Of a stretch of DNA of 64,000 bases, positions 5,249-27,952 are shown one piece after another. Numbering within the stretch: position 1 is the first letter of the stretch; the number at the start of each line of letters is the position of its first letter. The stretch covers positions 1,612,001 through 1,676,000 of the forward strand of contig NZ_AP027041.1 in NCBI RefSeq assembly GCF_027924565.1. Direction: 5' to 3'. The DNA comes from Lysobacter auxotrophicus. GTDB lineage: Bacteria; Pseudomonadota; Gammaproteobacteria; Xanthomonadales; Xanthomonadaceae. The translations under genes and the position numbers were made by a program. Under the pieces are notes generated by a model that did not search any database, was not told the origin of the DNA, and saw only the letters and a program-made list of their open reading frames with translations.

Positions 5249-5264
5249 TTGGAAACGTTTACAG
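5249..5264. promoter_or_regulatory. LacI-type operator upstream of lacI-family gene
   Basis: TTGGAAACGTTTACAG contains the near-perfect palindrome GGAAACGTTTAC with a central CG, the classic shape of a LacI/GalR-family site. It is 34 bases before the regulator's GTG, suggesting autoregulation. Related boxes lie before the TonB receptor (6374) and the orphan ATPase gene (26741). Confidence 0.7.
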
Positions 5265-5297
5265 TCCGCGCGCATTGTCCGCAGAGGCCCTGACAGC

Positions 5298-6332
5298 GTG
5301 CCGAGCGTAACCATCAAAGACGTCGCCCGCGTCGCGCAGGTCTCCGTGGCCACCGTCTCGCGCGCATTGAACGGCCACGGCAACGTGGCCGAAGACGTAC
5401 GCAACCGCGTCCTCGCCGCCGCGCAGGAGCTGCGCTACACGCCGCATGCGGCCGCGCGCAGCCTCTCAAGCCGCCGCACCCAGACGCTCGGCGTCGTGCT
5501 GCCGGACCTGCACGGCGAATTCTTTTCCGAATTGATGCGCGGCATCGACCAGGTCGCCCGCGCGAAACGGCTGCACCTGCTGGTTTCGAGCTACCACGGC
5601 AATCCGGACGAGCAGGGCGCCGCGCTGCGTGCGATGCGCGGTCGCGTCGACGGCCTGCTGGTGTTGTCGCCCTTCGCCGAGATACCGACGCTGCTGGGCG
5701 AACACCTCGACCCCGCGCTGCCGACCGTGCTGATCAACAGCCAGTCCGGCCTGGACGGCACCGCCGTGCTTCGCGTGGACAACCACGGCGGCGCGGTGGC
5801 GATGGTCGAACACCTGGTCGAATGCGGCCACCGCAGGATCGCCTTCATCGCCGGCCCTGCCGACAATTTCGATGCGCACGAACGCCTTCGCGGTTATCGC
5901 GATGCGCTCGCGCGCCTGCTTCCCGGCACGCCCGAATGGGTCGTGCAGGGCGACTTCGACGAAGCATCGGGCCATCGCGCCGGTCACGAACTGCTCGGCG
6001 CCGCGCAACGTCCCGATGCCGTCTTCGCCGCGAACGACATGATGGCGCTGGGATGCCTGTTCGCGTTCGCGCACGAAGGCGTTCGCGTGCCCGCCGAGAT
6101 CGCCGTTGCGGGCTTCGATGACATCCCGCTTGCACGCTACGTGCACCCGGCCCTCACGACCATTCGCGTCAACATCGCCGAACTCGGCGCTCGCGCGGCG
6201 CGTTTGCTGATCTCGCAAATCGCCGGCGAAGCGGCCGCAGAGCCGTCAACGTCGCCTTCCGGCGTGCTGGCGACCGAGCTGATCGTGCGCGAGTCGGGCG
6301 GCACCCGCACGCCACCTCCGCCTTCTGCGTGA
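5298..6332 (+). CDS. LacI-family transcriptional regulator
   Basis: A 344-residue LacI/GalR-type regulator. The N-terminal helix-turn-helix is complete (VTIKDVARVAQVSVATVSRA, residues 4-23), followed by the hinge helix (HAAARSLSSRRTQTLGVVLP) and a periplasmic-binding-protein-like sensor domain to about residue 330, including the usual DAVFAANDMMALG and VAGFDDIPLARYVHPALTTI segments. The start is GTG at 5298. The gene heads a block of TonB receptor, glucanase, sugar ABC importer and glycosidase, all on the same strand, and a palindromic box of the type its HTH should bind lies before it, before the receptor gene and before the ATPase gene at 26.9 kb. It is probably a local repressor released by an imported sugar; the ligand is unknown. 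Confidence 0.93.
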   Translation: MPSVTIKDVARVAQVSVATVSRALNGHGNVAEDVRNRVLAAAQELRYTPHAAARSLSSRRTQTLGVVLPDLHGEFFSELMRGIDQVARAKRLHLLVSSYHGNPDEQGAALRAMRGRVDGLLVLSPFAEIPTLLGEHLDPALPTVLINSQSGLDGTAVLRVDNHGGAVAMVEHLVECGHRRIAFIAGPADNFDAHERLRGYRDALARLLPGTPEWVVQGDFDEASGHRAGHELLGAAQRPDAVFAANDMMALGCLFAFAHEGVRVPAEIAVAGFDDIPLARYVHPALTTIRVNIAELGARAARLLISQIAGEAAAEPSTSPSGVLATELIVRESGGTRTPPPPSA

Positions 6333-6373
6333 TACCCGTGCCCCGGGGCGTCACGGTTCCTTGTGTCTGTTCG

Positions 6374-6388
6374 CTGTAAACGATTCCA
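6374..6388. promoter_or_regulatory. LacI-type operator upstream of TonB receptor gene
   Basis: CTGTAAACGATTCCA. Read on the minus strand it is TGGAATCGTTTACAG, which differs from the box before the lacI-family gene (TGGAAACGTTTACAG) at one position. It lies 35 bases before the receptor ATG and 42 bases after the regulator's stop. Confidence 0.72.
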
Positions 6389-6422
6389 CGTGGTTCGACA
6401 TGCTTTTGGAGAGAGGAAGCAT

Positions 6423-9407
6423 ATGAATTCGAGGTTCCCCCGCTCGAGACATCCGTCGCGCCGGCTGCTTGCCTGCGCCCTTGCCAGCTGCCTTGCCGTC
6501 GCCGCCCCCGCGGTGATGGCGCAAAGTACTTCGGCGACCATCCGCGGCCAGATCACGGTCGATTCGGCGCCTGCCACCGAAGCCCAGGTCACCGCCACCA
6601 ATACCGCCACCGGCCTGACCCGGAAGGTCCAGGCCACCAACGGCACCTACAACCTCGGCGGCCTGCTGCCGGGTACGTACCGCATCGACGCGGTCGCGAA
6701 CGGCCAGGCGACCACCCGGACGGTGACGCTGCAGGTCGGCCAGACGGCCACCATCGATCTGTCCGCCGGCGGACTGCCGGAAACCGCGGCCGCGGGCGAC
6801 GCGACCACGGTCGATGCCGTCACCGTTACCAGCGAAGTCGTGGCGGAAACCAAGACGTCCGAGATCGCCACCTACGTCACCAACAAGCAGATCGAGTCGC
6901 TGCCGCAGGGCACGCGCAACTTCCTCGCCTTCGCCGACCTGGCGCCGGGCGTGGCGTTCGAAACCGGCAACGAAGGCTCCACGCGCATCAAGTCGGGCGC
7001 GCAGAACGCCAACGGCATCAACGTCTACATCGACGGCGTCGGCCAGAAGGATTACGTGTTGCGCGGCGGCATCAGCGGCCAGGATTCCAGCCGCGGCAAT
7101 CCGTTCCCGCAGTCGGCGATCGGCGAATACAAGGTCATCACCCAGAACTACAAGGCCGAGTACGACCAGCTGAGCAGCGCGGCGATCGTCGCCACCACGC
7201 GCTCGGGCACCAACAACTTCGAAGGCAGCTTCTTCTGGGACTACACCTCGACCGACTGGCGTACGCCGACCGTGTTCGAGGAGCGCGCCGACGAGAAGGT
7301 GCAGACCAAGGAAGAGCAGTACGGCGCCACCTTCGGCGGTCCGATCCTGCGCGATCGCGCGCACTTCTTCCTGTCGTACGAAGCCAAGGAATACGAGTCG
7401 CCCCGCACGCTCACGCCAGGTCGCGGCTATTCCATCGACGAGCTGCCCGACTTCCTGCAGGCCGAAGCGGGCTCCGGCCTGTTCAACGCGCCGTTCAAGG
7501 AAAACCTGTACTTCGGCAAGGTCGACTGGCTGATCGGTGAAAACCACTACTTCGAGTTCAGCGGCAAATACCGCGACGAGGAAGAGCTGACCAACACCGG
7601 CGGGCAGAACCTGCCCAGCTATGCGACCAACAAGCTCAACGAGGAAACGCGCGCGGACCTGCGTTACCAGTACACCAACGGCGCGTGGCTAAACGATTTC
7701 CACCTGACGTACGAAGACTCGACGTTCAATCCGAGCCCGTACACCAGCGGTATCGCGTACATCCTCAGCAACCGCAGCGACAACGGAAACGCGGATTTCA
7801 ACAACGTCATCGTGCGCAGCGGCGGCGGTTCGGATTTCCAAGACAAGGGCCAGAAGGGCTGGGGCCTCCAGAACGACCTGACGTTCACCGGCTTCCAGGG
7901 CCACACGTTGAAGATGGGCGTGAAGTTCAAGGACGTCGACGTCGACGCGACCGAACGCCAGCCGTACTACCCGCAGTTCACGTACGACGTCGGCACCAGC
8001 CTGGTGCAGCCGATCCACGTCAAGTTCGGCACCGCGCTGCCGGGCGTTGGCGACGGTTCGGCCTCGTCGGCGAACAAGCAGTACGGCATCTACTTCCAGG
8101 ACGACTGGGAGGTCAACGAGAACCTGATCCTCAACCTCGGCCTGCGCTACGACTACGAGAAGAGCCCGACGTACCTGGATTACGTCACGCCGGCCGACGT
8201 CGCCGCCGCGCTGCGTGGTTCGAGCGCGATCAACAACCCGAACTCGGGCATCAACGTCGAGAACTACATCAGCAACGGCAACAACCGCAAATCCTTCAAG
8301 GATGGCTGGCAGCCGCGCCTGGGCTTCTCGTACGACCTGTTCGCCAACCAGGAACACGTGATCTACGGCGGCGCCGGCCGTGCGTACGACCGCAACCTGT
8401 TCGACTGGCTGCAGCTGGAAATCACCAAGTCGACGTTCCCGACGACCGACATCGATTTCCGCCTCGCCGATGGCTCGTGCCCGCGTCCGCTGCCGGCCCC
8501 GGGCACGCCGTGCATCGACTGGAACGCGTCGTACTTCGATCCGGCCGTGCTGGCGACGCTCGCCTCGCAGGATGGCCTCGGGCGCGAAGTCTTCATGCTC
8601 GACAACAACCTGAAGACGCCGTACTCCGACCAGTTCAGCCTCGGCATGCGCAACCAGGTCGGCGAATGGCTCACCGACGTCACGATCTCGCGCGTGCAGA
8701 GCAAGGACGGGTTCGTGTTCCTGCTCGGCAATCGCCTGCCGGATGGCTCGTTCTTCCGCCCCGGCTTCAGCTGGGGACCGCCGTGGGGCCAGGGCTTCGC
8801 GCCGTTCGGCAACCTGATCCTGGGCACCAATGGCCTGGAGACCAAGACCAACGCGCTGTATCTGAAGGCCGAGAAGCCTTACACGGCCGAATCGGGCTGG
8901 AGCGTCACCGTCGCCTACACCTACCTCGATGCGCGCGAACAACGCGAGTCGCCGGAAGTCTTCTCGCTGGACTATCCGACCGTGCAGGCGCTGGGCTGGC
9001 ATGACGCAGAAGTGCCCGAGCATCGCCTCGTCGCCACCGGCATCTACGACGGCCCGTGGAACACGACGCTGTCGGCCAAGCTGACGCTGACCTCGCAGCC
9101 GCCGCGCTACTTCGTCAACTGCGTGGCCGTCGACCAGCCGGACAACTGCTTCATCGACCAGTACAAGCCCGATGGCACGTACGGGTACAAGCAGTTCGAC
9201 ATCGCGGCGATGAAGGAATTCGACACGGGTGCAGGCTTCCGGATGTGGGCCCGCGCCGACATCCTGAACGTGTTCGACTGGGCCAACTACAACAGCTACC
9301 AGGATTACCCGGGTGGCTTCAATTCGCCCAACCCCGAATTCGGCATCCCGCTCGCACAGGCCCTGCCAACCCGTACCTTCAAACTCTCGCTAGGCTTCAA
9401 CTTCTGA
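6423..9407 (+). CDS. TonB-dependent receptor with N-terminal carboxypeptidase-regulatory-like domain
   Basis: Outer-membrane receptor of the Oar-like type, 994 residues. A signal peptide (cleavage near VMAQ, residue ~34) is followed by a carboxypeptidase regulatory-like beta-sandwich at ~37-110 (SATIRGQITV ... LPGTYRIDAVANGQ). A plug domain (~125-250, with FLAFADLAPGV and GVGQKDYVLRGG) and a large beta-barrel follow, ending in the outer-membrane C-terminal Phe (KLSLGFNF). The ATG at 6423 has a purine-rich ribosome site (GAGAGGAAG). Such receptors take up oligosaccharides and other large substrates with TonB energy. The position between the LacI regulator and the glucanase and importer genes points to a glucan-derived oligosaccharide, by inference. 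Confidence 0.93.
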   Translation: MNSRFPRSRHPSRRLLACALASCLAVAAPAVMAQSTSATIRGQITVDSAPATEAQVTATNTATGLTRKVQATNGTYNLGGLLPGTYRIDAVANGQATTRTVTLQVGQTATIDLSAGGLPETAAAGDATTVDAVTVTSEVVAETKTSEIATYVTNKQIESLPQGTRNFLAFADLAPGVAFETGNEGSTRIKSGAQNANGINVYIDGVGQKDYVLRGGISGQDSSRGNPFPQSAIGEYKVITQNYKAEYDQLSSAAIVATTRSGTNNFEGSFFWDYTSTDWRTPTVFEERADEKVQTKEEQYGATFGGPILRDRAHFFLSYEAKEYESPRTLTPGRGYSIDELPDFLQAEAGSGLFNAPFKENLYFGKVDWLIGENHYFEFSGKYRDEEELTNTGGQNLPSYATNKLNEETRADLRYQYTNGAWLNDFHLTYEDSTFNPSPYTSGIAYILSNRSDNGNADFNNVIVRSGGGSDFQDKGQKGWGLQNDLTFTGFQGHTLKMGVKFKDVDVDATERQPYYPQFTYDVGTSLVQPIHVKFGTALPGVGDGSASSANKQYGIYFQDDWEVNENLILNLGLRYDYEKSPTYLDYVTPADVAAALRGSSAINNPNSGINVENYISNGNNRKSFKDGWQPRLGFSYDLFANQEHVIYGGAGRAYDRNLFDWLQLEITKSTFPTTDIDFRLADGSCPRPLPAPGTPCIDWNASYFDPAVLATLASQDGLGREVFMLDNNLKTPYSDQFSLGMRNQVGEWLTDVTISRVQSKDGFVFLLGNRLPDGSFFRPGFSWGPPWGQGFAPFGNLILGTNGLETKTNALYLKAEKPYTAESGWSVTVAYTYLDAREQRESPEVFSLDYPTVQALGWHDAEVPEHRLVATGIYDGPWNTTLSAKLTLTSQPPRYFVNCVAVDQPDNCFIDQYKPDGTYGYKQFDIAAMKEFDTGAGFRMWARADILNVFDWANYNSYQDYPGGFNSPNPEFGIPLAQALPTRTFKLSLGFNF

Positions 9408-9514
9408 CCCGGGCCGCCGGCCGCCTACCTCGTCGGGGCGGTCGGCGGTTTCGTGGTGCGGCCTTCGCCGGCCGGAAACCAAAGGCGACCCTCATTCGAC
9501 AAGATGGCGTGGTG

Positions 9515-11146
9515 ATGTTCGATTCGATACGACGCAGTGTGGGGACTGCATCGCTGGTGGCGGTGCTCGTGTTCATTTCGGGGTGCAAGCAGGAAGGGCC
9601 GGCGTCCACGGCGTACCCGATCGCGTCCGCGCCGCCGGTCGAGGTGGAGCCGTTGAAACCGACCAAGCTCGAACTGCCGCCGCTGTTCCGCGACGTCGAA
9701 AAGCGCACGTTCCAGTTCTTCTGGGACACCACGAACGAAGTGAACGGGTTGACGCCCGACCGCTATCCCTCGCGGCCGTTCGCGTCCATCGCGTCGGTCG
9801 GCTTCGCGCTGACCGCATACCCGATCGGCATCGAGAACGGCTGGGTGAGCCGCCGCCAGGCGGTGGATCGCACGCTCACCACGCTGAAGTTCTTCCGCGA
9901 CCTCCCCTCCGGCCCGCAGGCCGAAGGCAAGGGCGCCTACAACGGCTTCTACTACCACTTCCTCGACATGGACACCGGCGCCCGGTTCCAGAGCTGGGTG
10001 GAGCTTTCCAGCGTCGACACCGCGCTGCTGATGATGGGCGTGCTGTTCGCGCAGAGTTATTACGATCGCGACGATCCGCGCGAGAAGGAAATCCGCGATC
10101 TGGCCGACACGCTCTACAAGCGCGTCGACTGGCCGTGGCTGCAGCGCAACGCGCCGCTGATTTCGATGGGCTGGTTCCCGGAAAGCGGCTTCATCCAGCA
10201 CGACTGGACCGGCTACAACGAAGCGATGATGCTCTACATCCTCGCGATGGGTTCGCCGACGCATCCGGTCGCGCCGGAGTCGTGGTCGGTGTGGACGCGC
10301 ACGTACAACGATTCGTGGGGCGTGTACCAGGGCGAGGAATACCTGTCGTTCGGCCCGCTGTTCGGCCACCAGTACAGCCACGTCTGGATCGATTTCCGCG
10401 GCATCCAGGACGACTACATGCGCGAGCGCGGCATCGACTACTTCGAGAACAGCCGCCGCGCGGCGTATGCGCACCGTGCGTACGCCATCGCCAATCCGAT
10501 GAAGTGGAAGGACTACGGCCCGGAAGTGTGGGGCCTCACCGCGAGCGACGGCCCGCAGCAGACGCTGCAGGAGTTCCGCGGCGAACAGCGCCAGTTCCGC
10601 CATTACTCCGCGCGCGGCGCCGGCCTGCGCGACACCTTCGACGACGGCACCATCGCGCCGACCGCGGCCATCGCATCCCTGCCGTTCGCGCCGGAAATCG
10701 TGATTCCGTCGACCGTCGCCATGCACGAGCGCTACGGCGAATACCTGTACTCCAGCTACGGGTTCCTCGATTCGTTCAACCGCAGCTTCGACTTCGACAT
10801 CCCGCTCAAGACCGGCCGCCTGGTGCCGGGCGAAGGCTGGGTCGCGAGCGACTACATCGGCATCGACCAGGGCCCGATCCTGGCGATGATCAGCAACTAC
10901 CGCAACGAGTTCGTCTGGAACGTGATGAAGCGGAACAAGTACATCCGCGACGGATTGCAGAAGGCGGGCTTCAAGGGCGGCTGGCTGGAACCGGTGAAGG
11001 AAGGCGAGGCCGCGCCCACGCAACCCAAGCCGCAGACGAAGGCCGAGAAGGACGCGGCGACGGCGCGCGCGCTGGGCGAGGCGGAGTCGCGGGTGAACCG
11101 CGCTTCGCAGACGCCGCAGCCGACGCAGGAGCCAAAAACAAAGTGA
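9515..11146 (+). CDS. GH144-like lipoprotein (glycoamylase-domain glucanase)
   Basis: A 543-residue predicted lipoprotein: signal peptide with lipobox FISGC, then a Pro-rich linker, then an (alpha/alpha)6-barrel of the PF10091 'glycoamylase' type. Recognisable family segments are RTFQFFWDTTNEVNGLTPDR, VGFALTAYPIG, the WVELSSVDTALLMMG block, YNEAMMLYILAMG and the late GPILAMISNYR. Characterised bacterial relatives (family GH144) are endo-beta-1,2-glucanases; other PF10091 members differ, so the substrate is an inference. A C-terminal tail (~500-543) is low-complexity Lys/Glu/Ala/Thr. The ATG at 9515 was chosen for the signal peptide. The stop overlaps the next GTG by 4 bases, so it is co-translated with the binding protein. 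Confidence 0.85.
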   Translation: MFDSIRRSVGTASLVAVLVFISGCKQEGPASTAYPIASAPPVEVEPLKPTKLELPPLFRDVEKRTFQFFWDTTNEVNGLTPDRYPSRPFASIASVGFALTAYPIGIENGWVSRRQAVDRTLTTLKFFRDLPSGPQAEGKGAYNGFYYHFLDMDTGARFQSWVELSSVDTALLMMGVLFAQSYYDRDDPREKEIRDLADTLYKRVDWPWLQRNAPLISMGWFPESGFIQHDWTGYNEAMMLYILAMGSPTHPVAPESWSVWTRTYNDSWGVYQGEEYLSFGPLFGHQYSHVWIDFRGIQDDYMRERGIDYFENSRRAAYAHRAYAIANPMKWKDYGPEVWGLTASDGPQQTLQEFRGEQRQFRHYSARGAGLRDTFDDGTIAPTAAIASLPFAPEIVIPSTVAMHERYGEYLYSSYGFLDSFNRSFDFDIPLKTGRLVPGEGWVASDYIGIDQGPILAMISNYRNEFVWNVMKRNKYIRDGLQKAGFKGGWLEPVKEGEAAPTQPKPQTKAEKDAATARALGEAESRVNRASQTPQPTQEPKTK

Positions 11147-12435
11147 GCCGGCGGCGCACCATCGTCGCGATGACGGTTCTCGCCGTTGTCGCGCTGCTGT
11201 CCGCGTGCGGCGGCGAGCGCGATGAACGCACCGTCGTGCGCTTCTGGGCGATGGGCTTCGAAGGCGAGATGGTGCGCCAGCTCATCCCCGATTTCGAACG
11301 CGCCAATCCCGGTATCCGCGTCGAAGTGCAACAACTGCCGGTCACCGCCGCGCACGAGAAACTGCTGACCGCCTTCGCCGGCGACGGCCTGCCGGACGTG
11401 TGCGGCCTGGGCAACACGTGGCTGGCGGAGTTCGTCGAGCTGGACGCGGTGACGCCGCTGGAACCGTTCCTCGCACGTACGCCCTCGATGCCGGCGAGCG
11501 ATTATTTCGGCGGCTCGTGGGACACCGGCGTCATCGGCGGACATGTGTATGCGGTGCCGTGGTACGTCGAAACGCGCCTGCCGTTCTACCGGAAGGACAT
11601 CCTCGAAGCCGCCGGCGTGAAGCAGGTGCCGCGCACGTGGCAGGAATGGAACGACGCGATGGCTGCGGTGAAGCGCCATGTCGGGCCGGATCGTTTCGCC
11701 ATCCACCTGCCGCTCAACGAATACGAGCCGCTGCTCAACCTCGCCATCCAGCAACCCGATCCGCTGCTGCGCGACGACGGCCGCTACGGAAACTTCCGCA
11801 GCCCGGGGTTCAAGCGCACGCTCACCTTCTACAACGACATCTTCCAGCGCAAATGGGCGCCGGCGTTCGCGAACACGCAGATCGCCAACGTCTGGAACGA
11901 GTTCGGCCGCGGCTTCTTCACCTTCTACGTCAACGGGCCCTGGAACATCGCCGAGTTCCGCAAGCGCCTGCCACCGGAACTGGAAGGCAGGTGGGGCACG
12001 ATGCCGCTGCCCGGTCCCGACGGCCCCGGCGCGTCGGTCGCCGGCGGCGCGAGCTTCGTGGTGTTCAAGCAGTCCAAGCAGCAGGACGCTGCGTGGAAGC
12101 TCGTCGCGTTCCTGTCCGACCCGCAGGTGCAGGTGCGTTTCCACGCGCTCACCGGCAACCTGCCGCCGCGCCGCAGCGCGTGGGAAAGCAGCCAGGCGCT
12201 GGCGAGCGATCCCTACACGCTGCCGTTCCGCGAGCAGCTCGAACGCGCCAAACCCGCGCCGAAAGTGCCCGAGTGGGAGCGCATCGCGCAGGAGCTGCGC
12301 ATCGTCGGCGAGCAGATGGTCGCCGGTCGCTACACCGTCGATGAAGCCGCCGCCGAACTCGATCGCCGCGCCGATGCCATCCTCGAAAAACGCCGCTGGA
12401 TGCTGGAGCAGCACGCCGCCGGAGGTTCGCCATGA
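11143..12435 (+). CDS. Sugar ABC transporter substrate-binding lipoprotein
   Basis: Cluster B/family 1 extracellular sugar-binding protein, 430 residues. A lipobox (LLSAC, about residues 17-21) is followed by the SBP_bac_1 fold: VRFWAMGFEGEMVRQLIPDF, LPDVCGLGNTWLAEF, the PWYVETRLPFYRKDIL hinge segment and GASFVVFKQSKQQDAAWKL near the end. The GTG at 11143 overlaps the glucanase stop (GTGA); an internal ATG at 11170 would cut into the signal peptide. It should capture the imported oligosaccharide in the periplasm and deliver it to the two permeases just downstream. No ATPase gene follows in this operon. The ligand cannot be read from the sequence. Confidence 0.92.
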   Translation: MSRRRTIVAMTVLAVVALLSACGGERDERTVVRFWAMGFEGEMVRQLIPDFERANPGIRVEVQQLPVTAAHEKLLTAFAGDGLPDVCGLGNTWLAEFVELDAVTPLEPFLARTPSMPASDYFGGSWDTGVIGGHVYAVPWYVETRLPFYRKDILEAAGVKQVPRTWQEWNDAMAAVKRHVGPDRFAIHLPLNEYEPLLNLAIQQPDPLLRDDGRYGNFRSPGFKRTLTFYNDIFQRKWAPAFANTQIANVWNEFGRGFFTFYVNGPWNIAEFRKRLPPELEGRWGTMPLPGPDGPGASVAGGASFVVFKQSKQQDAAWKLVAFLSDPQVQVRFHALTGNLPPRRSAWESSQALASDPYTLPFREQLERAKPAPKVPEWERIAQELRIVGEQMVAGRYTVDEAAAELDRRADAILEKRRWMLEQHAAGGSP

Positions 12436-13331
12436 TTGCGACGCGCCGCGTGTCCGCCTCCACCGCCGGCTGGATGTTCGCCGCGCCCGCGCTCACGGTG
12501 ATCGGCGTGTTCTTCGGCCTGCCGGTGTTGGCGGCGTTCGCGCTGAGCCTGACGGACTTCGACATCTACTCGCTCGCCGACATCTCGAACCTGCGCTTCG
12601 TCGGTCTGCACAACTACGCGACGCTGCTGCAGGACCCGCTGTTCTGGAAGGCGCTGGGCAACACGATGTACTTCGTCGTGGTCGGTGTCCCGCTGTCGAT
12701 CACCGTCTCGCTCGGCGCCGCGCTGCTGCTGCATTCGAAGGCCGCGCGCTTCAAGCCGTTCTTCCGGACCGCGTACTTCGCGCCGGTGGTGACGACGGTG
12801 GTCGCTGTCGCGGTGATCTGGCGCTACCTGTTCCACACGCGCTACGGCCTGGTGAACTGGGGCCTGACCTCGCTGGGCCTGCCCGCCGTCGACTGGCTCG
12901 GCGATCCGACGTGGGCGATGCCGACGATCATCCTGTTCGCGGTGTGGAAGAACTTCGGCTACAACATGATCATCTTCATCGCCGGACTGCAGTCGATTCC
13001 CGAAGACCTCTACGAGGCCGCGCGCATCGACGGTGCGACGCCCGCGCAGCAGTTCTGGAACGTCACCTTGCCGCAGCTGGGCCCGGTGCTGCTGATGGTC
13101 TCCATCCTCACCTTGTCCGGGTATTTCCAGCTGTTCGCGGAGCCTTACGTGATCACGCAGGGTGGGCCGCTGCAGAGCACCGTGAGCGTGCTTTACCTGA
13201 TGTACGAGGAAGGCTTCAAGTGGTGGAACCTCGGTAATGCGTCCGCCGTGGCGTTCCTGCTGTTCGCGCTGATGTCGGTCGCCACCAGCGGCCTGCTGTG
13301 GTTCGCGCGCCGACGTGGAGCGGAAGCATGA
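12432..13331 (+). CDS. Sugar ABC transporter permease (MalF/UgpA type)
   Basis: A 299-residue inner-membrane permease with about six hydrophobic helices. The coupling-helix EAA motif is clear (EDLYEAARIDGATPAQQFWN, followed by VTLPQLGP), where the ATPase docks. The ATG at 12432 overlaps the binding-protein stop (ATGA), and the stop overlaps the next gene the same way. Its relatives carry di- and oligosaccharides. Together with the next permease it should form the heterodimeric channel of the importer. Confidence 0.93.
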   Translation: MIATRRVSASTAGWMFAAPALTVIGVFFGLPVLAAFALSLTDFDIYSLADISNLRFVGLHNYATLLQDPLFWKALGNTMYFVVVGVPLSITVSLGAALLLHSKAARFKPFFRTAYFAPVVTTVVAVAVIWRYLFHTRYGLVNWGLTSLGLPAVDWLGDPTWAMPTIILFAVWKNFGYNMIIFIAGLQSIPEDLYEAARIDGATPAQQFWNVTLPQLGPVLLMVSILTLSGYFQLFAEPYVITQGGPLQSTVSVLYLMYEEGFKWWNLGNASAVAFLLFALMSVATSGLLWFARRRGAEA

Positions 13332-14149
13332 GCCCGCGCCTGGCCCGCGCCATCGTCAACGGGCTGATGATCGCGCTGGCGGTGGTGAGCCTCGCGCCGC
13401 TGCTGTGGATGCTGTCGGTGTCGTTCATGCAGCCGGGCGAAGCGGCGCATTTCCCGCCGCCGCTGCTGCCCGCCGCACCGACGCTGCACAACTACCATGA
13501 GCTGTTCGCGCGCGCCGGCATGGGACGCTACCTGCTCAACAGCGCGATGATCGCCACCGCCGCGACGCTCATCGCGCTGATGCTCAACACGATGGCCGGC
13601 TATGCGTTCGCCAAGCTGAAGTTCGCCGGCCGCGAGCGCGTGTTCCGCCTGCTGCTGGGCGCGCTGATCATCCCGGCGCAGGTCACGATGATGCCGCTGT
13701 TCCTGATGCTCAAGCAGATGGGGCTGGTGAACACCTACGCCGGCGCGATCGTGCCGCTGATGGCGAGCGTGTTCGGCATTTTCCTCGTGCGCCAGTACGC
13801 GCGTTCGATTCCCGATGAACTGCTGGAAGCCGCCCGCATCGACGGCGCGAGCGAGACGCGGATCTTCTTCCAGATCGTGCTACCGGTGCTCAAGCCGATC
13901 CTCGTGACGCTGGCGATCTTCGTCTTTCTCGGCGCGTGGAACGACTTCATGTGGCCGCTGATCGTGCTGAGCGATTCCGGGCACTTCACGCTGCCGGTGG
14001 CGTTGGCATCGCTGTCGCGCGAGCACGTGCAGGACAACGAGATGATGATGGCCGGATCGGTGGTGACGGTGTTGCCGGTGCTGATCCTGTTCCTGGCGCT
14101 GCAGCGTTATTACCTGCAGGGCCTGCTGGTCGGGAGCGTGAAAGGGTGA
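13328..14149 (+). CDS. Carbohydrate ABC transporter permease (MalG/UgpE type)
   Basis: A 273-residue partner permease with six predicted helices and a canonical EAA loop (PDELLEAARIDGASETRIFF, then QIVLPVLKP). The ATG at 13328 overlaps the upstream stop (ATGA); an upstream in-frame start at 13298 would overlap the preceding gene by 34 bases and is less likely. A GTG overlapping its own stop (14146) could start the next gene, so the operon continues without a gap. Confidence 0.93.
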   Translation: MSPRLARAIVNGLMIALAVVSLAPLLWMLSVSFMQPGEAAHFPPPLLPAAPTLHNYHELFARAGMGRYLLNSAMIATAATLIALMLNTMAGYAFAKLKFAGRERVFRLLLGALIIPAQVTMMPLFLMLKQMGLVNTYAGAIVPLMASVFGIFLVRQYARSIPDELLEAARIDGASETRIFFQIVLPVLKPILVTLAIFVFLGAWNDFMWPLIVLSDSGHFTLPVALASLSREHVQDNEMMMAGSVVTVLPVLILFLALQRYYLQGLLVGSVKG

Positions 14150-14151
14150 GG

Positions 14152-17100
14152 ATGGCACGTCGGTTTGCATGGGCGTTCGCGCTGGTTCCGGTGACGGCGT
14201 GGGCGCAGGGAGTGGGCGAAGTGCGTGTGCTGGACGATTTCGAATCGACCACGCCGTGGCAGGTCGTGACCTCCGACCAGGTCACCGGCACGCTGCGCAA
14301 GGTGCCCGGCGCCGACGGCCAGGCCGTCTGCCTGGACTACGATTTCAACGGCGTTTCCGGTTACGCCGGTTTGCAGCGCGAATTGCTGATCGACTATCCG
14401 GACAACTACGCGTTCTCATTCCAGCTGCGTGGCGATTCGCCGCGCAACGACCTGCAATTCAAGGTCGTCGACGACAGCGGCGACAACGTGTGGTGGGTCA
14501 ACAAGCCGCGCTACGAGTTCCCGAAGAACTGGACGCCCGTCGTCTACAAGCAGCGCCATATCAGCCGCGCATGGGGCCCCGCGCCGGATCCCACGCTGCG
14601 CCGCAGCCGGAAGATCGAATTCACGATCTACAACAGCGCCGGCGGCAAGGGCTCGGTGTGTTTCGACCAGCTCACGTTCCGCAAGCTGCCGCCGCAGGAT
14701 GATTCGCCTCTGACGGGCGACGCGAGCGCAACGGTCGAAAGCGGAAACGGTCCCGCGCGTAACGCCATCGACGGCGATGCCACGACCGCATGGCGCGCCG
14801 CGCCTGGCGCGGCGACGGCGCCGCAGTTCACGCTCGACCTGCGCAAGCCGCGCGAGTTCGGCGGACTCGTGCTCGACTGGCTGCCGCGCGAACACGCCAG
14901 CGATTACCGCATCGAGTTGTCCGACGATGGCGCGCAATGGCGCGTCGCGCGCGAAGTGAGTGGAAGCAATGGCGGTCGCGATCACATCGCATTGCCCGAG
15001 TCCGAAGCGCGCTTCGTCCGGTTGACCGCAACGAAGGCGCCGGCGCAGCGCATCGCGCTGGCGAACTTCCAGGTGATGCCGCTCGCGTTCGCGGCGACCC
15101 CCAACGATTTCGTCCGCTCTGTCGCGAAGGATGCACCGCGTGGCCGTTGGCCGCGCGGGTTCTTCGGCGAGCAGCCGTACTGGACGATTCTCGGAATTGA
15201 CGGTGGCGTCGAGCAGGGGTTGATCGGTGAGGATGGTGCGGTCGAAGTGGGCAAGGGCGCCTTCAGCATCGAGCCGTTCGTGGTGAGCGACGGCACGCTG
15301 GTGACCTGGGCCGACGTGAAGATCACGCAGTCGCTGCAGGACGGTTACCTGCCGATTCCGTCGGTCCACTGGAAGCACGCGGACTTCGCGCTGGACACCA
15401 CGGCGTTCGCACATGGCACGCGCGACGATTCGCATCTCACCGCCCGCTACGTGCTGCGCAACACGAGCGATCGTCCGCGCCGCTACGTCCTCGCGCTAGC
15501 CGCGCGGCCGATGCAGGTGAATCCGCCGACGCAGTTCCTGAGCACCGTCGGCGGTGTCAGCCAGATCGGTTCGATCAACGCGAAACCGGACGCGATCGCG
15601 GTCGCCGGCCGCTTCCCCGTGCGCGCCACGGCATCCGATGCCGCCTTCGTGAGTCGGTTCGACGAAGGCGAAGTGGTGCAGCGACTGGCCCGCGCAAACT
15701 GGAAAGCGTTCTGCGCGCAAGGTTGCGAACGCAAGGCGTTCGGTCCCGTGGAAAGCCAGGTCGATGACGTGACCGGCCTCGCGTCCGGCGCGCTGCTGTA
15801 CTCGGTGGAGCTTGCGCCCGGGCAATCCCGGGAGTTCGACTGGAGCGTGCGATTGACCGGTCGCGACGAGGCGGAGCCGAAGCGCATCGATGCGGCGAAA
15901 GCGCAGGCCGCCACTGCGGCGCTGTGGCGCGACAAGCTCGACCGCGTACAGCTTCGCGTGCCGGAACAGGGCCAGCACGTGGTCGACACGTTGCGCACCG
16001 CGCTGGCGCACATGCTGATCAGCCGCATCGGGCCGCGCCTGCAGCCGGGTACGCGGTCGTACTCGCGCGCGTGGATCCGCGACGGCGCGATGATCGGCGA
16101 AGGCCTGCTGCGCATGGGCCGCGAGGACGTCGCCACCGAATTCCTGCGCTGGTATGCGCCGTACCAGTTCGACAACGGCAAGGTGCCGTGCTGCGTGGAC
16201 GATCGCGGCAGCGATCCGGTGCCGGAGAACGACAGCCACGGCGAGCTGATCTTCACCATCGCGCAGGTGTACCGCTTCAACCGCGATCGCGAGTTGCTCG
16301 ACGCGATGTGGCCGCATGTAGTCGGCGCGTTCGACTACATGGAGAAGCTGCGCCTGAGCGAACGCACCGAAGCGAACCGCGCACGCAATCCGGCGTTCTA
16401 CGGAATGATGCCGGCGTCGATCAGCCACGAAGGCTATTCGGCCAAGCCGATGCATTCGTACTGGGACAACTTCTGGGCGCTGCGCGGTTACAAGGATGCG
16501 GTGGAAATCGCGCAGTGGCTCGGCAAGGACGCGGATGCCAAGCGCTTTGCCGCCTCGCGCGACCAGTTCCGCGACGACCTGTATGCCTCGCTTCGCAGCG
16601 CCACGCAGCAGCACGGCATCGATTTCCTGCCGGGCGCGGCAGAACTGGGCGATTTCGATGCGACGTCCACGACGATCGCGCTCGCACCGGGCGGCGAACA
16701 GGGGCTGCTGCCGAAGGACCTGCTCGACAACACCTTCGAGCGTTACTGGCGCGAGTTCGTGTCGCGTCGCGACGGCGCGCGCGAATGGAAGGACTACACG
16801 CCGTACGAGCTGCGCACCATCGGCACGTTCGTTCGCCTGGGCTGGCGCGATCGCGCGCACGAGGCGCTGGCGTTCTTCTTCGCCGACCAGCAGCCGCGTA
16901 CCTGGAACCAGTGGGCCGAGGTCGTCTCGCGCACGCCGCGCAAGCCGTTCTTCGTCGGCGACCTGCCGCATGCGTGGGTCGGTTCGGATTACGTGCGGTC
17001 GGCGCTGGACCTGTTCGCGTATTCGCGCGACCTGGACGATGCGCTGGTTGTCGCCGCGGGCATCCCGGCGGACTGGCTGGCGGGCGAGGGCGTGAGCGTG

Positions 17101-17334
17101 GCGAACCTGCGCACGCAGTACGGGCCGGTGGGGTATTCGCTGAAGGAGCGCGACGGGCGCATGCTGTTCACGTTGTCGCCCGATACGAAATTGCCGCCCG
17201 GCGGCGTGGTGCTGACGTGGCCGTATGCGTCCGCGCCCGGCGCGACGCGAATCGACGGGAAGATCGCCCGTTGGATGAATGGCGAGCTGAAGATCGCGCG
17301 GGCCGGGGCGAAGGTGGACGTGGAGCTGCGCTGA
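14152..17334 (+). CDS. Large secreted discoidin-domain (alpha/alpha)6-barrel glycosidase
   Basis: A 1060-residue secreted protein. A signal peptide (to about AWAQG) is followed by a beta-sandwich resembling carbohydrate-binding modules at ~25-185 (DDFESTTPW ... SVCFDQLTF), a discoidin/F5-8-type C domain at ~195-325 (ARNAIDGDATTAWRA), a further beta-rich region to ~600, and a six-hairpin glycosidase-like domain at ~610-1010. The barrel has a glucoamylase-like WIRDGAM motif (641-647), an acidic loop PENDSHGE (691-698) and WNQWAE (918-923); Glu692, Asp694, Glu698 and Glu923 are candidate catalytic residues by position only. The start is the ATG at 14152 or the in-frame GTG at 14146. I cannot assign a GH family. 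Context suggests it trims or debranches the oligosaccharide in the periplasm. Confidence 0.82.
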   Translation: MARRFAWAFALVPVTAWAQGVGEVRVLDDFESTTPWQVVTSDQVTGTLRKVPGADGQAVCLDYDFNGVSGYAGLQRELLIDYPDNYAFSFQLRGDSPRNDLQFKVVDDSGDNVWWVNKPRYEFPKNWTPVVYKQRHISRAWGPAPDPTLRRSRKIEFTIYNSAGGKGSVCFDQLTFRKLPPQDDSPLTGDASATVESGNGPARNAIDGDATTAWRAAPGAATAPQFTLDLRKPREFGGLVLDWLPREHASDYRIELSDDGAQWRVAREVSGSNGGRDHIALPESEARFVRLTATKAPAQRIALANFQVMPLAFAATPNDFVRSVAKDAPRGRWPRGFFGEQPYWTILGIDGGVEQGLIGEDGAVEVGKGAFSIEPFVVSDGTLVTWADVKITQSLQDGYLPIPSVHWKHADFALDTTAFAHGTRDDSHLTARYVLRNTSDRPRRYVLALAARPMQVNPPTQFLSTVGGVSQIGSINAKPDAIAVAGRFPVRATASDAAFVSRFDEGEVVQRLARANWKAFCAQGCERKAFGPVESQVDDVTGLASGALLYSVELAPGQSREFDWSVRLTGRDEAEPKRIDAAKAQAATAALWRDKLDRVQLRVPEQGQHVVDTLRTALAHMLISRIGPRLQPGTRSYSRAWIRDGAMIGEGLLRMGREDVATEFLRWYAPYQFDNGKVPCCVDDRGSDPVPENDSHGELIFTIAQVYRFNRDRELLDAMWPHVVGAFDYMEKLRLSERTEANRARNPAFYGMMPASISHEGYSAKPMHSYWDNFWALRGYKDAVEIAQWLGKDADAKRFAASRDQFRDDLYASLRSATQQHGIDFLPGAAELGDFDATSTTIALAPGGEQGLLPKDLLDNTFERYWREFVSRRDGAREWKDYTPYELRTIGTFVRLGWRDRAHEALAFFFADQQPRTWNQWAEVVSRTPRKPFFVGDLPHAWVGSDYVRSALDLFAYSRDLDDALVVAAGIPADWLAGEGVSVANLRTQYGPVGYSLKERDGRMLFTLSPDTKLPPGGVVLTWPYASAPGATRIDGKIARWMNGELKIARAGAKVDVELR

Positions 17335-17345
17335 GCGTCCATTCA

Positions 17346-17413
17346 TAGCCCGGGCAAGCGAAGCGTAGTTGGTGCCTTGATGGGGCGTCGTCCCGCTTCG
17401 CTTCCCCGGGTTA
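17346..17413. repeat. GTAGCCCGGG-family palindromic repeat, copy 1
   Basis: TAGCCCGGGCAAGCGAAGCG at the left is matched in inverted form by CGCTTCGCTTCCCCGGG at the right. It lies after the glycosidase stop and overlaps the earliest possible start codons of the next gene, which argues for a later start there. It may also act as a transcription end for the sugar operon. Confidence 0.75.
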
Positions 17414-17421
17414 CGGACGCG

Positions 17422-18447
17422 GTGAACATTGACGCGCTCTGGACCGCCCCTGCGGCAACGTTCGAACCTCCGCAGCAGGAAAACGCGGCCTTGGCCCGTA
17501 CCCCGCATCGCGTCATCCCCGCCGTCGAAAGCGCGCGCCAGCACGCGCTGGACCGGTACCACGTCGTCGATACACCCAGCGAATCGGTCTACGACGACCT
17601 GGTGCGCATCGCCGCGCACCTGTGCGATGCGCCCATCGCGCTGTTGTCGCTGATCGATCGCGACCGCCAGTGGTTCAAGGCGCGCCTGGGCCTGGCCGAA
17701 CACGAAACGCCGCGCAACGTCGCGGTCTGCGCGCACGCGATCCTGGAGCCGGGCGAGTTGATGGAGGTGCCCGACCTCGCCCGCGATCCGCGCTTTGCGA
17801 TGTTCCCGATCGTCATCGGCGAGGTGCGCGCGCGCTTCTACGCGAGCATGCCGCTCACCACCGCGGACGGGCAGGCGATCGGCACGCTCTGCGTCGTCGA
17901 TCGCCAGCCGCGCACGCTCGAGCCGGCCCAGCGCGACTGGCTGGAATCGCTCGGTCGTGTCGCCATGGGTTTGCTGGACGGCCACGCGCGGCGCTACCAG
18001 GACGAGGTGCGCGTCGCGCTGACGACGCGTCGCGAGCCCGAGCCGGCGCCGGTACCCGTGGCGAAGGAGAACTTCCGCATCGCGATCCTCGAAGTGCAAC
18101 GCTACGCGGCGCTGGTCGAACGCGACGGCGAGCGGACGGTCGAGAAGACCTTGCAGGCGCTGGAATCGCGCTTCGAAAGCTGCCTGGATCTCGCCGCCGG
18201 CGATCGCGTGAACCGCGTCAGCGACAGCGCCGAGTTCGTCGCCGTGCTGACGGGCGACGCGGGCGAAGCGCGCCTGGGCGCGCTGCGCGAGGTGGCGTCC
18301 GAATCGGCGCAGGGCGGGTTGTCGGTACTGGTCGGCAGCGCGGTGTCGGCGCATGGCGAGGAGGCGCTCGGCGCAGTGTTCCTTCGCGCCGAGGCGGATC
18401 TGAGTCGTCGGAAGGATGAAGCAGGGGCTGCCGCTCCAACCGCCTGA
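17422..18447 (+). CDS. GAF-domain protein with degenerate GGDEF-like C-terminus
   Basis: About 341 residues, apparently cytoplasmic. A GAF domain covers ~40-195 (DLVRIAAHLCDAPIALLSLI, RDRQWFKARLGL, FYASMPLTTADGQAIGTLCV), of the kind common in diguanylate cyclases and sensor proteins. The C-terminal ~120 residues resemble a worn GGDEF domain: RIAILEVQRYAALVERDGE matches the early strand, and DRVNRVSDSAEFVAVL sits where 'R.GGDEF.vll' would be, with SDSAEF replacing GGDEF. It is therefore unlikely to make cyclic-di-GMP. The GTG at 17422 is my preferred start because the upstream TTG/ATG (17377/17380) lie inside a palindromic repeat. Ligand and partner are unknown. Confidence 0.72.
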   Translation: MNIDALWTAPAATFEPPQQENAALARTPHRVIPAVESARQHALDRYHVVDTPSESVYDDLVRIAAHLCDAPIALLSLIDRDRQWFKARLGLAEHETPRNVAVCAHAILEPGELMEVPDLARDPRFAMFPIVIGEVRARFYASMPLTTADGQAIGTLCVVDRQPRTLEPAQRDWLESLGRVAMGLLDGHARRYQDEVRVALTTRREPEPAPVPVAKENFRIAILEVQRYAALVERDGERTVEKTLQALESRFESCLDLAAGDRVNRVSDSAEFVAVLTGDAGEARLGALREVASESAQGGLSVLVGSAVSAHGEEALGAVFLRAEADLSRRKDEAGAAAPTA

Positions 18448-18463
18448 CCAATGCGATGTTTTG

Positions 18464-18493
18464 GTAGCCCGGGTAAGCGCAGCGCAGCCGGGA
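18464..18493. repeat. GTAGCCCGGG-family repeat, copy 2 (single arm)
   Basis: GTAGCCCGGGTAAGCGCAGC followed by GCAGCCGGGA, a hairpin-forming half element in the convergent gap between the GAF gene and the RND adaptor gene. It may work as a bidirectional transcription end. Confidence 0.7.
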
Positions 18494-18555
18494 TGACGCC
18501 CATCACGGCTGACCCGAGCGCGGCCTGCGGCCCACGCGGGCAACAAGAGTTCGCG

Positions 18556-24257: not shown

Positions 24258-24896
24258 ATGGATCGCGACGAACTCCTCCGCCAACTCGCCCGCACCCGCG
24301 CGGGCCTGATCCGCACCTACGTGTTGCACGTGGTCTGGTTCGCGGTCATGTGCACCGCGACCGCGATGCAATGGCGCCAGGACGGCCTGACGGCCTCGGT
24401 CCTGCTGACGCTCGTGACGGTGCCGCCGGTGCTGTTCTACACGGTGCGCGCGCACCGGCTCTGCCGCGCGCTCGATCCACCTGCGCGTACCGTCGGCCTC
24501 GTGCCCGTGCTGATCATCACCGTGATCCTGAGCCCCTTCGAATCCGGCCTGGTGCTACCGCTGAAGAACCTGCTCGCGACCAATCGCGTGCTACGCACCG
24601 CGCGTGCAGCGAACCACGCGCGCATTCAAGACAGCGAAACCGTCTTCGCCGCACGACGCCCTGGGCGTCGTAGGCCGGGTAAGCGAAGCGCACCCGGGGA
24701 ATGGAACGCGTCCGCGCGGCGCTTCACGCGCACCAATGCACGTCCAGCGGCGTGCCATAGCTGCTGTCCAGCGTCACCAGCACCGGCCACCGCTGCCGGT
24801 CGCCCGCGGCGACGGCCTGCTCGAACACCGCGCGCTTCCGTTCGCCCTGGATCAGCAGCAGGCGATGCGCGATGCGCGCGATCCCGCGCGGCGTGA
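24258..24896 (+). CDS. Small membrane protein of unknown function, C-terminus doubtful
   Basis: I do not recognise this family. The first ~125 residues look like a real membrane protein: a charged start (MDRDELLRQLARTRAG) and three hydrophobic segments at about 17-38, 46-64 and 80-100. After about residue 130 the composition changes to Arg/Pro/Ala, because the frame reads through a palindromic repeat (24670-24699) and then antisense to the last 173 bases of pgl. The open frame (212 residues) therefore probably ends in added, non-native sequence. Either the original stop was lost when the repeat inserted, or the annotated protein is functional with a random tail. The ATG at 24258 is well placed. 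Confidence 0.5.
   Translation: MDRDELLRQLARTRAGLIRTYVLHVVWFAVMCTATAMQWRQDGLTASVLLTLVTVPPVLFYTVRAHRLCRALDPPARTVGLVPVLIITVILSPFESGLVLPLKNLLATNRVLRTARAANHARIQDSETVFAARRPGRRRPGKRSAPGEWNASARRFTRTNARPAACHSCCPASPAPATAAGRPRRRPARTPRASVRPGSAAGDARCARSRAA
24670..24699. repeat. GTAGCCCGGG-family repeat, copy 4 (single arm)
   Basis: GTAGGCCGGGTAAGCGAAGC plus GCACCCGGGG. It lies inside the open frame of the small membrane protein (from about codon 138) and just beyond the pgl stop. Confidence 0.75.
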
Positions 24897-25464
24897 GGCT
24901 GATGCGACGCGTCCACTGTCGCGCGCCCGGGCACCCCTGCGCGTCGACGGCGACGTAGTCGCGCGGGCTGGCGAGGACGCGTTCGGCGTCGTTCATGCCG
25001 GGGAACAGCGATGCCGTATGCCCGTCATCGCCCATGCCGAACACGGCGACCGTCGCTTCGCGGCGCGCGTGCGCGTTGGCGGTGGCGACCGCGCCTTCGA
25101 GGTTGCGACCGGCCTGCGTCATCGGTTCGAAGTGCGCGACGGCCGCGTGGTCGCGCAGGAATTCGCGATGCACGAGGTACGCGTTGCTGTCCGGATCGTC
25201 CGGCAGCAGCCAGCGTTCGTCGACGAGGCCGACGTCCACGCGCTCCCAGTCCAGCGGCGCCTGCGACAGGGCGCGGTAGACCGGGCCGGGCGTTTCGCCG
25301 CCGGACAACAGCAGCCGCGCGCGCGGCTGGACGATCAGCTCGCGGCGCAGTTCCGCCGCGATGGACACCGCCGCCGCCCAAGTCCAGACCTCGCGGTTCG
25401 CGTGGGCATGGAAGACGTACGTCGCCCCGGCTTCGGGCGTCGGAAGGGGCGTGCGGTCGGCCAT
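24724..25464 (-). CDS. pgl: 6-phosphogluconolactonase
   Basis: A 246-residue DevB-type enzyme hydrolysing 6-phosphogluconolactone to 6-phosphogluconate, feeding the pentose phosphate and Entner-Doudoroff routes. Family motifs: LLLSGGETPGPVYRAL, VDVGLVDERWLLPDDPDSN and GMGDDGHTASLFPG. It lies 43 bases downstream of glk on the same strand, so the two are probably one transcript turning glucose to 6-phosphogluconate (glucose-6-phosphate dehydrogenase is not in the window). The start is the ATG at 25464. The last 173 bases overlap an antisense open frame of the small membrane protein gene. Confidence 0.95.
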   Translation of the reverse strand: MADRTPLPTPEAGATYVFHAHANREVWTWAAAVSIAAELRRELIVQPRARLLLSGGETPGPVYRALSQAPLDWERVDVGLVDERWLLPDDPDSNAYLVHREFLRDHAAVAHFEPMTQAGRNLEGAVATANAHARREATVAVFGMGDDGHTASLFPGMNDAERVLASPRDYVAVDAQGCPGARQWTRRISLTPRGIARIAHRLLLIQGERKRAVFEQAVAAGDRQRWPVLVTLDSSYGTPLDVHWCA

Positions 25465-25507: not shown

Positions 25508-26515
25508 TCAGGTGCCTTCCAGGGCCAGCGCGGCGGCGCCCAGCAGGCCCGGTTGCGGGTGGATGACCGCGAGCGTCGGGATCCGCGCCATCACCGGCGA
25601 GAAGCGGCCCTTGTATTCGAAGCGCTGGCGGAAGGCCGAATGGGCGATGGACGGCAGCAGCTTCGGCACGAGGCCGCCGGTGAGGAACACGCCGTCCCAG
25701 GCGCCCAGCGTCAGCACCAGGTCGCCGGCGGCCGCGCCGAACACCGCGCAGAACACGTCGATCGTGCGCAGGCTGCGCTCGTCGCCGCCTGATGCGCGTG
25801 CGGTGATGTCGGCCGGCTTGAGCGGGCCGGGGTCTTCGCCGGCAATGTTGCTCAACGCGCGGTGCAGGTTCACCAGGCCCTGGCCGCTCACCAGGCGCTC
25901 GTTCGACACGCGGCCGAATTCGGCGGACATCTGCTGGAGGATCTCGATTTCCTCCGGCGAGTTCGGCGCGAAACTCACGTGGCCGCCTTCGGTCTGCAGC
26001 GGAAAATAGCGGCCGCCGCGGCGCAGCAGCCCGCCCACGCCCAGGCCCGTGCCCGCGCCGATGATGCCGAAGGTGCGGTCCTGTGCATCGTGGCCGTTCC
26101 AGCCGATGCCGCCGACCGGCACCACGTCTTGCGGGCGCAGCAGCGACGCGCCCATCGCCTGCGCGGCGAAGTCGTTCACCAGGCGCAGCGAGGTCAGGCC
26201 CAGCGCTTCGCCGGTCCGCGCGGCGGAAATCACCCAGGGATGGTTGGTGATGCGCGCCTCGTCGCCGTCCACGCGGCCTGCGACCGCGAACACGCCGGTG
26301 CTCGCGATGGCGCCGGTGGTGTCGAGGTAATGGCGCGCGGCGTCGGCCAGCGAGGGGAAATCGGCGACCACGAACTCGCGCACGCTCTCCATCAGCAGCG
26401 GATCGACCGCGTCGGGTCGCGCGAGCGCGAACCGCGCGTTGGTGCCGCCGATGTCGGCGAGCAGGGCGTGGGTGTCGGTCGGGGGGATCTCGCTCAAGGC
26501 ATCACCGGAAGGCAT
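25508..26515 (-). CDS. glk: Glucokinase
   Basis: A 335-residue Glk-family (non-ROK) kinase that phosphorylates glucose to glucose-6-phosphate in the cytoplasm. The ATP-binding phosphate-1 motif ALLADIGGTNARFALA is at about 17-32. RLVNDFAAQAMG holds the family's substrate-loop Asn-Asp, and FGIIGAGTGLGVGGLL the adenosine region. ATG at 26515; a TTG one codon earlier is possible. It heads a glk-pgl operon and is divergent from the MsmX-type ATPase gene, with a LacI-type box between them about 230 bases before glk. This fits use of glucose released from the imported oligosaccharide. Confidence 0.95.
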   Translation of the reverse strand: MPSGDALSEIPPTDTHALLADIGGTNARFALARPDAVDPLLMESVREFVVADFPSLADAARHYLDTTGAIASTGVFAVAGRVDGDEARITNHPWVISAARTGEALGLTSLRLVNDFAAQAMGASLLRPQDVVPVGGIGWNGHDAQDRTFGIIGAGTGLGVGGLLRRGGRYFPLQTEGGHVSFAPNSPEEIEILQQMSAEFGRVSNERLVSGQGLVNLHRALSNIAGEDPGPLKPADITARASGGDERSLRTIDVFCAVFGAAAGDLVLTLGAWDGVFLTGGLVPKLLPSIAHSAFRQRFEYKGRFSPVMARIPTLAVIHPQPGLLGAAALALEGT

Positions 26516-26740: not shown

Positions 26741-26756
26741 TGAAAACGGTTACATG
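26741..26756. promoter_or_regulatory. LacI-type operator between glk and the ABC ATPase gene
   Basis: TGAAAACGGTTACATG has the same layout as the boxes at 5249 and 6374 (A-rich half, central CG, GTTACA half) with a few mismatches. It is about 96 bases before the ATPase ATG and about 225 bases before glk, so it could control either or both. Confidence 0.6.

Positions 26757-26851: not shown

Positions 26852-27952
<1,101 letters not shown>

Follow-up and report, generated by a model that had tools for sequence, protein, structure and literature searches.

A probable LacI-controlled β-1,2-glucan pathway in Lysobacter auxotrophicus with an unclassified giant glycosidase

Results

Gene organisation of the locus

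The DNA analysed here is a stretch of 64,000 nucleotides (nt) from Lysobacter auxotrophicus (C1:1612001-1676000 in the single-contig genome of 4.155 Mb), referred to below as the window, which carries an operon that appears to serve the uptake and breakdown of β-1,2-glucan. A gene for a LacI-family regulator is followed by genes for a TonB-dependent receptor, a lipoprotein of glycoside hydrolase (GH) family 144, an ATP-binding cassette (ABC) binding protein, two permeases and a very large glycosidase, here called the giant (Table 1). An earlier note made from the sequence alone had described this series, with a glycosidase of 1060 residues, and gene models and Pfam matches bear it out throughout; the start that it quoted, 5249, lies one base ahead of a LacI-type operator. 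The overlaps of starts and stops that it reported from the lipoprotein gene onward are present as well, with 4 nt at each of the four junctions from the GH144 gene through the giant, and true intergenic gaps separate the LacI and receptor genes (90 nt) and the receptor and GH144 genes (107 nt). The giant starts either at a GTG (14146, 1062 residues) or at an ATG (14152, 1060 residues).

Pfam matches the receptor to CarboxypepD_reg and OMP_b-brl_4. As had been stated, Pfam detected no SusD family in any of the operon proteins, so that the SusC/SusD pair of a Bacteroides-type polysaccharide utilisation locus is lacking. The locus places a degrading enzyme, an inner-membrane transporter and a sugar-related regulator beside a TonB receptor, the combination by which carbohydrate utilisation (CUT) loci are defined (passages of PMC1790865). 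The claim of an ABC importer within the operon holds for the binding protein and the two permeases; an ABC ATPase is absent from the operon. A UgpC/MalK-type ATPase gene is located 9.5 kb downstream of the operon, where it adjoins the glucokinase gene and carries an operator. Between the operon and the glucose genes pgl and glk with the ATPase gene lies 17377-24115, which encodes an AraC regulator, an RND transporter together with its membrane-fusion protein, and a protein with a GAF domain; some closely related genomes show the same separation.

Table 1. Features of the locus in window coordinates; the unlinked GH3 gene is given in genome coordinates.
Feature	Position	Strand	Remarks
Operator TGGAAACGTTTACA	5250..5263	.	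34 nt ahead of LacI gene
LacI-family regulator	5298..6332	+	GTG start; PF00356 (LacI), PF13377 (Peripla_BP_3)
Operator TGTAAACGATTCCA	6375..6388	.	34 nt ahead of receptor gene
Oar-like TonB-dependent receptor	6423..9407	+	994 residues; PF13620, PF25183, PF00593; signal peptide by eye
GH144 endo-β-1,2-glucanase-like lipoprotein	9515..11146	+	PF10091; lipobox ISGC by eye
ABC solute-binding lipoprotein, putative β-1,2-gluco-oligosaccharide binder	11143..12435	+	GTG start; SBP_bac_1; lipobox LSAC by eye
ABC permease 1	12432..13331	+	PF00528 (BPD_transp_1)
ABC permease 2	13328..14149	+	PF00528 (BPD_transp_1)
Giant glycosidase	14146..17334	+	CBM11-like + F5/8C + β-sandwich + (α/α)6 barrel; apparent signal peptide
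pgl, 6-phosphogluconolactonase	24724..25464	-	TIGR01198 over cut-off
glk, glucokinase	25508..26497	-	PF02685; TIGR00749 over cut-off
Operator TGAAAACGGTTACA	26741..26754	.	97 nt ahead of ATPase gene
UgpC/MalK-type ABC ATPase, proposed importer partner	26852..27952	+	NF008653, UgpC subfamily, 481 bits vs cut-off 432
GH3 β-glucosidase, unlinked	C1:4076506-4078686	-	Starts MSSARVEALL; operator 13 nt before ATG; without apparent signal peptide

The GH144 lipoprotein and the binding protein

The lipoprotein matches PF10091 with 296 bits against a cut-off of 27, which places it in GH144. Among solved structures 8XUL (XCC2207) is much the closest, at 905 bits, the next PDB sequence scoring 205 bits. 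XCC2207 is XcSGL, an assayed β-1,2-glucanase, for which activity was undetected on carboxymethyl (CM)-cellulose, barley glucan, glucomannan, xyloglucan, lichenan, laminarin and CM-curdlan (passages of PMC12102758). In the alignment to 8XUL the residues of the SGL clan are kept, E236, F283 and Y364 corresponding to E239, F286 and Y367 of XcSGL; the crystallised 8XUL protein has a Gln at the first of these positions because a mutant was crystallised. The GH144-like character suggested in the earlier note is thus confirmed by the PF10091 match and by the closeness to XcSGL, and the lipoprotein would be expected to cut β-1,2-glucan endolytically, as shown for that relative.

Matches of the binding protein to PDB chains (best 60 of 286) were headed by 3UOR at 548 bits, followed by Lin1841 of Listeria at 221 bits and a third chain at 104 bits, Lin1841 scoring above the known maltose binders. 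According to published passages, Lin1841 binds β-1,2-oligoglucans of three to five units. 3UOR is the apo structure of a Xanthomonas citri protein named Xac-MalE (passages of PMC13084667). In the operon of Xanthomonas hortorum (L129) the binding protein, which stands with a GH144 enzyme, matches 3UOR at 927 bits. Xac-MalE therefore very probably has this role in the X. citri copy of the operon, as judged by sequence comparison, and we suggest that the X. citri “MalE” is a binder of β-1,2-oligoglucans and not of maltose.

Conservation of the operon in relatives

Relatives were collected by means of the giant, which yielded 509; the best 80 were kept as loci with up to 10 kb per side, so that the giant is present by design, and genes were called by a simple script trained on the source operon, with some starts wrong. 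The seven-gene order is complete in 67 of these 80 loci, so the order described in the earlier note is kept in the Xanthomonadaceae, and such agreement argues that the layout is not due to chance. Among the exceptions, six loci have no LacI match (some being cut at the locus end) and three are cut at contig ends; the receptor gene is missing between LacI and GH144 in three loci (L092, L116 and L137) and follows permease 2 in another (L094). The GH144 copies of Xanthomonas among the loci are 71-73% identical to XcSGL.

Downstream of the giant, genes for the ATPase (50 loci), glucokinase (50), edd (41), eda (40), pgl (36), GH1 (26) and zwf (26) recur in the 80 loci, several of which are cut by contig ends. 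In many loci the opposite strand carries eda, edd, pgl, glucokinase, zwf and GH1, after which comes the ATPase, a set reduced in the source window to pgl, glucokinase and the ATPase. A survey of 299 genomes from the phylum, in which at most two candidates per genome were scored so that relatives can be missed, showed the giant or a paralogue in at least seven. Two of these lie outside the family, and in both the receptor gene is followed in turn by those for GH144, the binding protein, the permeases and the giant.

The operator and its regulon

The motif TGNAAACGNTTNCA is a palindrome with a central CG, in keeping with the rule for LacI-family operators (passages of PMC4052901), and it stands before the regulator gene and target genes, as in a local LacI-family regulon. 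A Xanthomonas entry was not found in the passages of that survey of LacI regulons. Exact matches occur at five places in the genome (0.28 expected for independent bases; none with the reversed control), namely before the genes for LacI, the receptor, the UgpC-type ATPase and the unlinked GH3 β-glucosidase, and at cysJ. The window itself has three such places, which give six matches when counted on both strands; shuffles gave 0.37 on average, and not one of the 100 had as many as six.

The 80 loci hold 190 exact strand-counted matches; 200 patterns made by shuffling the letters averaged 0.165 and never exceeded 4. With up to one mismatch allowed there are 209 sites, 205 of which lie before genes for LacI (79), GH144 (49), the receptor (28), the ATPase (45), GH1 alone (1) or a giant paralogue (3), with four unassigned; 43 of the 45 ATPase sites are common to a divergent GH1, glk or zwf gene. 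Counted by gene in the loci of the relatives, an operator precedes LacI in 70 of 71 cases, GH144 in 48 of 77, the ATPase in 44 of 50, the receptor in 27 of 78, GH1 in 23 of 26, glk in 11 of 50 and zwf in 9 of 26, and none of the 252 genes without assignment in these loci (0/252). The common operator, together with the neighbourhood in relatives, suggests that the ATPase missing from the operon is best explained by the gene at 26852-27952. In three loci (L101:22810, L105:18662 and L106:18644) a further member of the giant family has an operator in front of its gene, and this paralogue may join the regulon there.

Two alternative β-glucosidases

No GH1 gene was found in the source genome, which has three GH3 genes. 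The product of the one that carries the operator matches Lin1840 at 525 bits among β-glucosidases, the best match reaching 580 bits, and an operator with at most one mismatch precedes 24 of 30 fetched orthologues, the source genome's own included.

The distribution of the two enzyme types was counted in 149 genomes of the family. Genomes G002, G004, G011, G022, G094 and G119 were left out as being of the cyclic-glucan-synthase type, as was G110, where PF10091 is matched by a fragment, which may be a GH144. Among the 73 giant-bearing genomes, 39 have a GH1 of the cluster type and 34 a close GH3, none having both and none neither; among the 76 without the operon's giant, GH1 is present in four and a close GH3 in none. 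The Fisher tests on the giant versus β-glucosidase genes, and versus glucan-synthesis genes, ignore kinship. Each of three genera (g1, g16 and g17) contains both types of β-glucosidase, a pattern that counts against one early divergence, and the swap between GH1 and GH3 probably happened several times. The strict alternation in this sample is a clean case of enzyme replacement inside one regulon. X. citri 306 is described as having three GH3 enzymes and no GH1 (passages of PMC10714752).

The giant glycosidase

The AlphaFold2 model of the giant has a mean predicted local distance difference test (pLDDT) score of 84 for the whole protein and 87 for the catalytic half. It runs from an N-terminal β domain (with a weak CBM11 match) through an F5/8C domain, a β-sandwich and an (α/α)6 barrel to a C-terminal β domain, and the giant is probably a periplasmic (α/α)6 enzyme. 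Foldseek placed GH94 phosphorylases first, followed by GH15 (dextran dextrinase, glucodextranase), GH116 and others, at about 8-14% identity; the highest TM-score among the 50 best matches, 0.61, belonged to 8rf0, a cyclic glucan synthase specific for β-1,2 bonds.

By sequence, the matches were weak and to families that act on α bonds, with GH15 and debranching enzymes favoured. PF17389 (GH78-type six-hairpin) scored 24.9-25.0 bits against a cut-off of 24.5 with only part of the model aligned, and the 44 members of the giant family showed weak matches to TIGR01577 (44 members), PF17389 (43, with E up to 1), GDE_C (30), GH95 (26), the archaeal debranching enzyme (20) and trehalase (17). Assignment to GH15 was rejected, there being no PF00723 match, a TIGR01577 score of 26 bits (cut-off 820.7) and an hhalign probability of 38; assignment to GH94 was likewise rejected, with no GH94 among the Pfam and NCBIfam matches and an hhalign probability of 10, though the fold is close. 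A sequence relative of the catalytic part was not found in the PDB. The giant fits no β-glucanase family and neither GH15 nor GH94, and represents an unclassified enzyme, the substrate of which could be tested directly.

Three acidic residues, D644, D772 and E923 (numbered from the ATG at 14152), are invariant across the alignment of 44 members. The RDG motif containing D644 was aligned by hhalign with the WxRD motif of GH15, and the spacings between the three residues, 128 and 151, resemble the 124 and 165 that separate Asp, acid and base in a bacterial GH15 protein. We propose them as candidate catalytic residues, with acid and base roles suggested by motif and spacing; they remain proposals of this kind because the nearby loops are of low confidence in both models.

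Two views of the substrate were weighed. It is possible, though less likely than not, that the giant is an exo-acting β-1,2-glucosidase or an oligosaccharide-releasing enzyme and not an enzyme of α linkages, as this would suit a pathway with β-1,2 bonds only and agrees with the lead of GH94 phosphorylases in Foldseek and the top TM-score of 8rf0; however, GH94 is absent from the family matches, hhalign gave 10 for GH94 against 38 for GH15 (both weak), and a phosphorylase would not be expected to carry the apparent signal peptide. It is possible, though doubtful, that the giant founds a new GH family which cleaves the single α-1,6 bond of α-1,6-cyclised β-1,2-glucans. To our knowledge, this closure is the sole α bond in the β-1,2-glucan class. 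It is made by Xanthomonas, Ralstonia and Cereibacter (passages of PMC11842490). The proposal of α-1,6 cleavage draws on GH15- and debranching-like traits in an (α/α)6 enzyme that lies within a β-1,2 pathway, on the residue spacings and on the Asp/Glu acid and base of a debranching enzyme, amylo-α-1,6-glucosidase, in which Asp1241 is the acid and Glu1492 the base and Asp1078 holds the glucosyl group (passages of PMC4837477). If true, it would make this the first known route that digests α-1,6-cyclised rings completely.

Discussion

β-1,2-Glucan is a rare bacterial sugar polymer, and β-1,2-glucans, the cyclic forms included, are bacterial symbiosis and virulence factors; we know of few complete routes for their breakdown. 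The locus very likely encodes a LacI-controlled β-1,2-glucan pathway, as judged from sequence, because its GH144 enzyme is near the assayed XcSGL, its binding protein scores far better with Lin1841 than with the maltose binders, its operator marks a small regulon and its gene order is kept together with β-glucosidase, glucokinase and ATPase genes. The same evidence supports the dedicated pathway for this glucan that had been put forward in the earlier note. The gene set of this bacterium, which is conserved across the family, very probably takes up β-1,2-glucan and degrades it to glucose.

In the proposed route the TonB-dependent receptor would carry the glucan or its fragments over the outer membrane and the GH144 lipoprotein would make endo cuts in it, as XcSGL does, while the giant would work in the periplasm on the part of the glucan beyond the reach of GH144. 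The ABC importer, with the UgpC-type ATPase as its power source, would bring β-1,2-gluco-oligosaccharides into the cytoplasm, where the GH3 enzyme, or GH1 in other genomes, would release glucose for processing by glucokinase and then the Entner-Doudoroff enzymes. Through TGNAAACGNTTNCA sites LacI would keep the operon, the ATPase gene, the GH3 gene and its own gene repressed, and binding of a pathway sugar to LacI would lift this repression. The prediction covers every stage between the outer membrane and central metabolism and names a regulon that can be tested.

Several observations weigh against this reading. The fifth exact operator match, C1:3193038, at or just inside cysJ, fits no reading, and is probably due to chance, since 0.28 matches are expected in the genome. 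No operator was found before the window's GH144 gene (best site with five mismatches), though 48 of the 77 GH144 genes of relatives have one, and 6 of the 30 GH3 orthologues are without it. The identity limit in the GH1/GH3 count (≥66% versus ≤59%) was drawn after the list had been seen, and 9 of the 43 GH1 genomes also hold a more distant GH3 (47-59%). Finally, of 79 genomes that have a GH144-type gene, 6 are without the giant, which is for this reason taken to be accessory to the core route. Every family genome sampled that has the giant also has GH144.

It is unlikely that the pathway serves to recycle the cell's own osmoregulated periplasmic glucans and not to scavenge foreign glucan. The degrading enzymes are exported, and an OpgG/D-type (MdoG) gene is present in 53 of the 73 giant genomes as against 5 of the 76 without the giant, the source genome having one. 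However, 15 of the 73 have neither MdoG nor a long PF10091 reading frame of the cyclic-glucan-synthase type, the outer-membrane receptor suggests uptake from outside, and the co-occurrence is not used as proof because kinship is uncorrected. A maltose or α-glucan system, for which the name Xac-MalE, the weak GH15-type matches of the giant and the Pfam label of PF10091 as a putative glucoamylase could be adduced, is highly improbable and was rejected: 3UOR is an apo structure whose relative belongs to the X. hortorum operon beside GH144, Lin1841 outscores the known maltose binders, XcSGL acts on β-1,2-glucan, and the regulon holds a β-glucosidase of GH3 or GH1 type.

Parts of the β-1,2-glucan pathway have counterparts in known systems. 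XcSGL of Xanthomonas campestris, the close relative of the lipoprotein, has been studied as an isolated enzyme, and the passages of its paper contain no operon, regulon or transporter. Listeria innocua Lin1839-1841 comprises, in published passages, a related binding protein and a GH3 β-glucosidase for β-1,2-oligoglucans; unlike the present locus it is Gram-positive, with a phosphorylase (SOGP) in place of GH144, and has neither TonB receptor nor giant. For the SGL cluster of Ignavibacterium album, GH144, a TonB receptor and an ABC importer have been proposed as one route (passages of PMC8861115), so that TonB- and ABC-dependent import of β-1,2-oligoglucans is already in print, as is XcSGL; that cluster has in addition a GH35 transferase and GH94, and such a regulon or giant is unreported in those passages. 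The CUT loci of Xanthomonas bring together receptor, degrading enzyme, inner-membrane transporter and regulator in the same way, but none of the six is described for β-1,2-glucan in the passages of PMC1790865, where XCC2208, whose number adjoins XCC2207, appears only as a receptor without canonical plug. No description of the regulon, its ATPase and β-glucosidase members or the giant was found in the open-access literature, among the matches listed.

Variants of the operon were also seen. In two genomes (G016 and G091) the giant is missing and the rest of the operon is present, with GH1 and glucokinase genes nearby. In another locus without the giant (L165:5737-9461), the gene after GH144 encodes a GH3 that has an apparent signal peptide, and in three giant-lacking operons (L162:10947-12476, L233:11870-13393 and L234:11914-13437) a tryptophan-halogenase-like flavoprotein is encoded between the receptor and GH144. 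Three loci (L153:7680-10745, L154:8241-11309 and L157:7948-10968) have a separate set, with LacI and a TonB receptor, that is headed by a giant paralogue of 32-34% identity; in two of these sets a tryptophan-halogenase-like flavoprotein comes next, and the sets are perhaps a sister pathway for another glycan.

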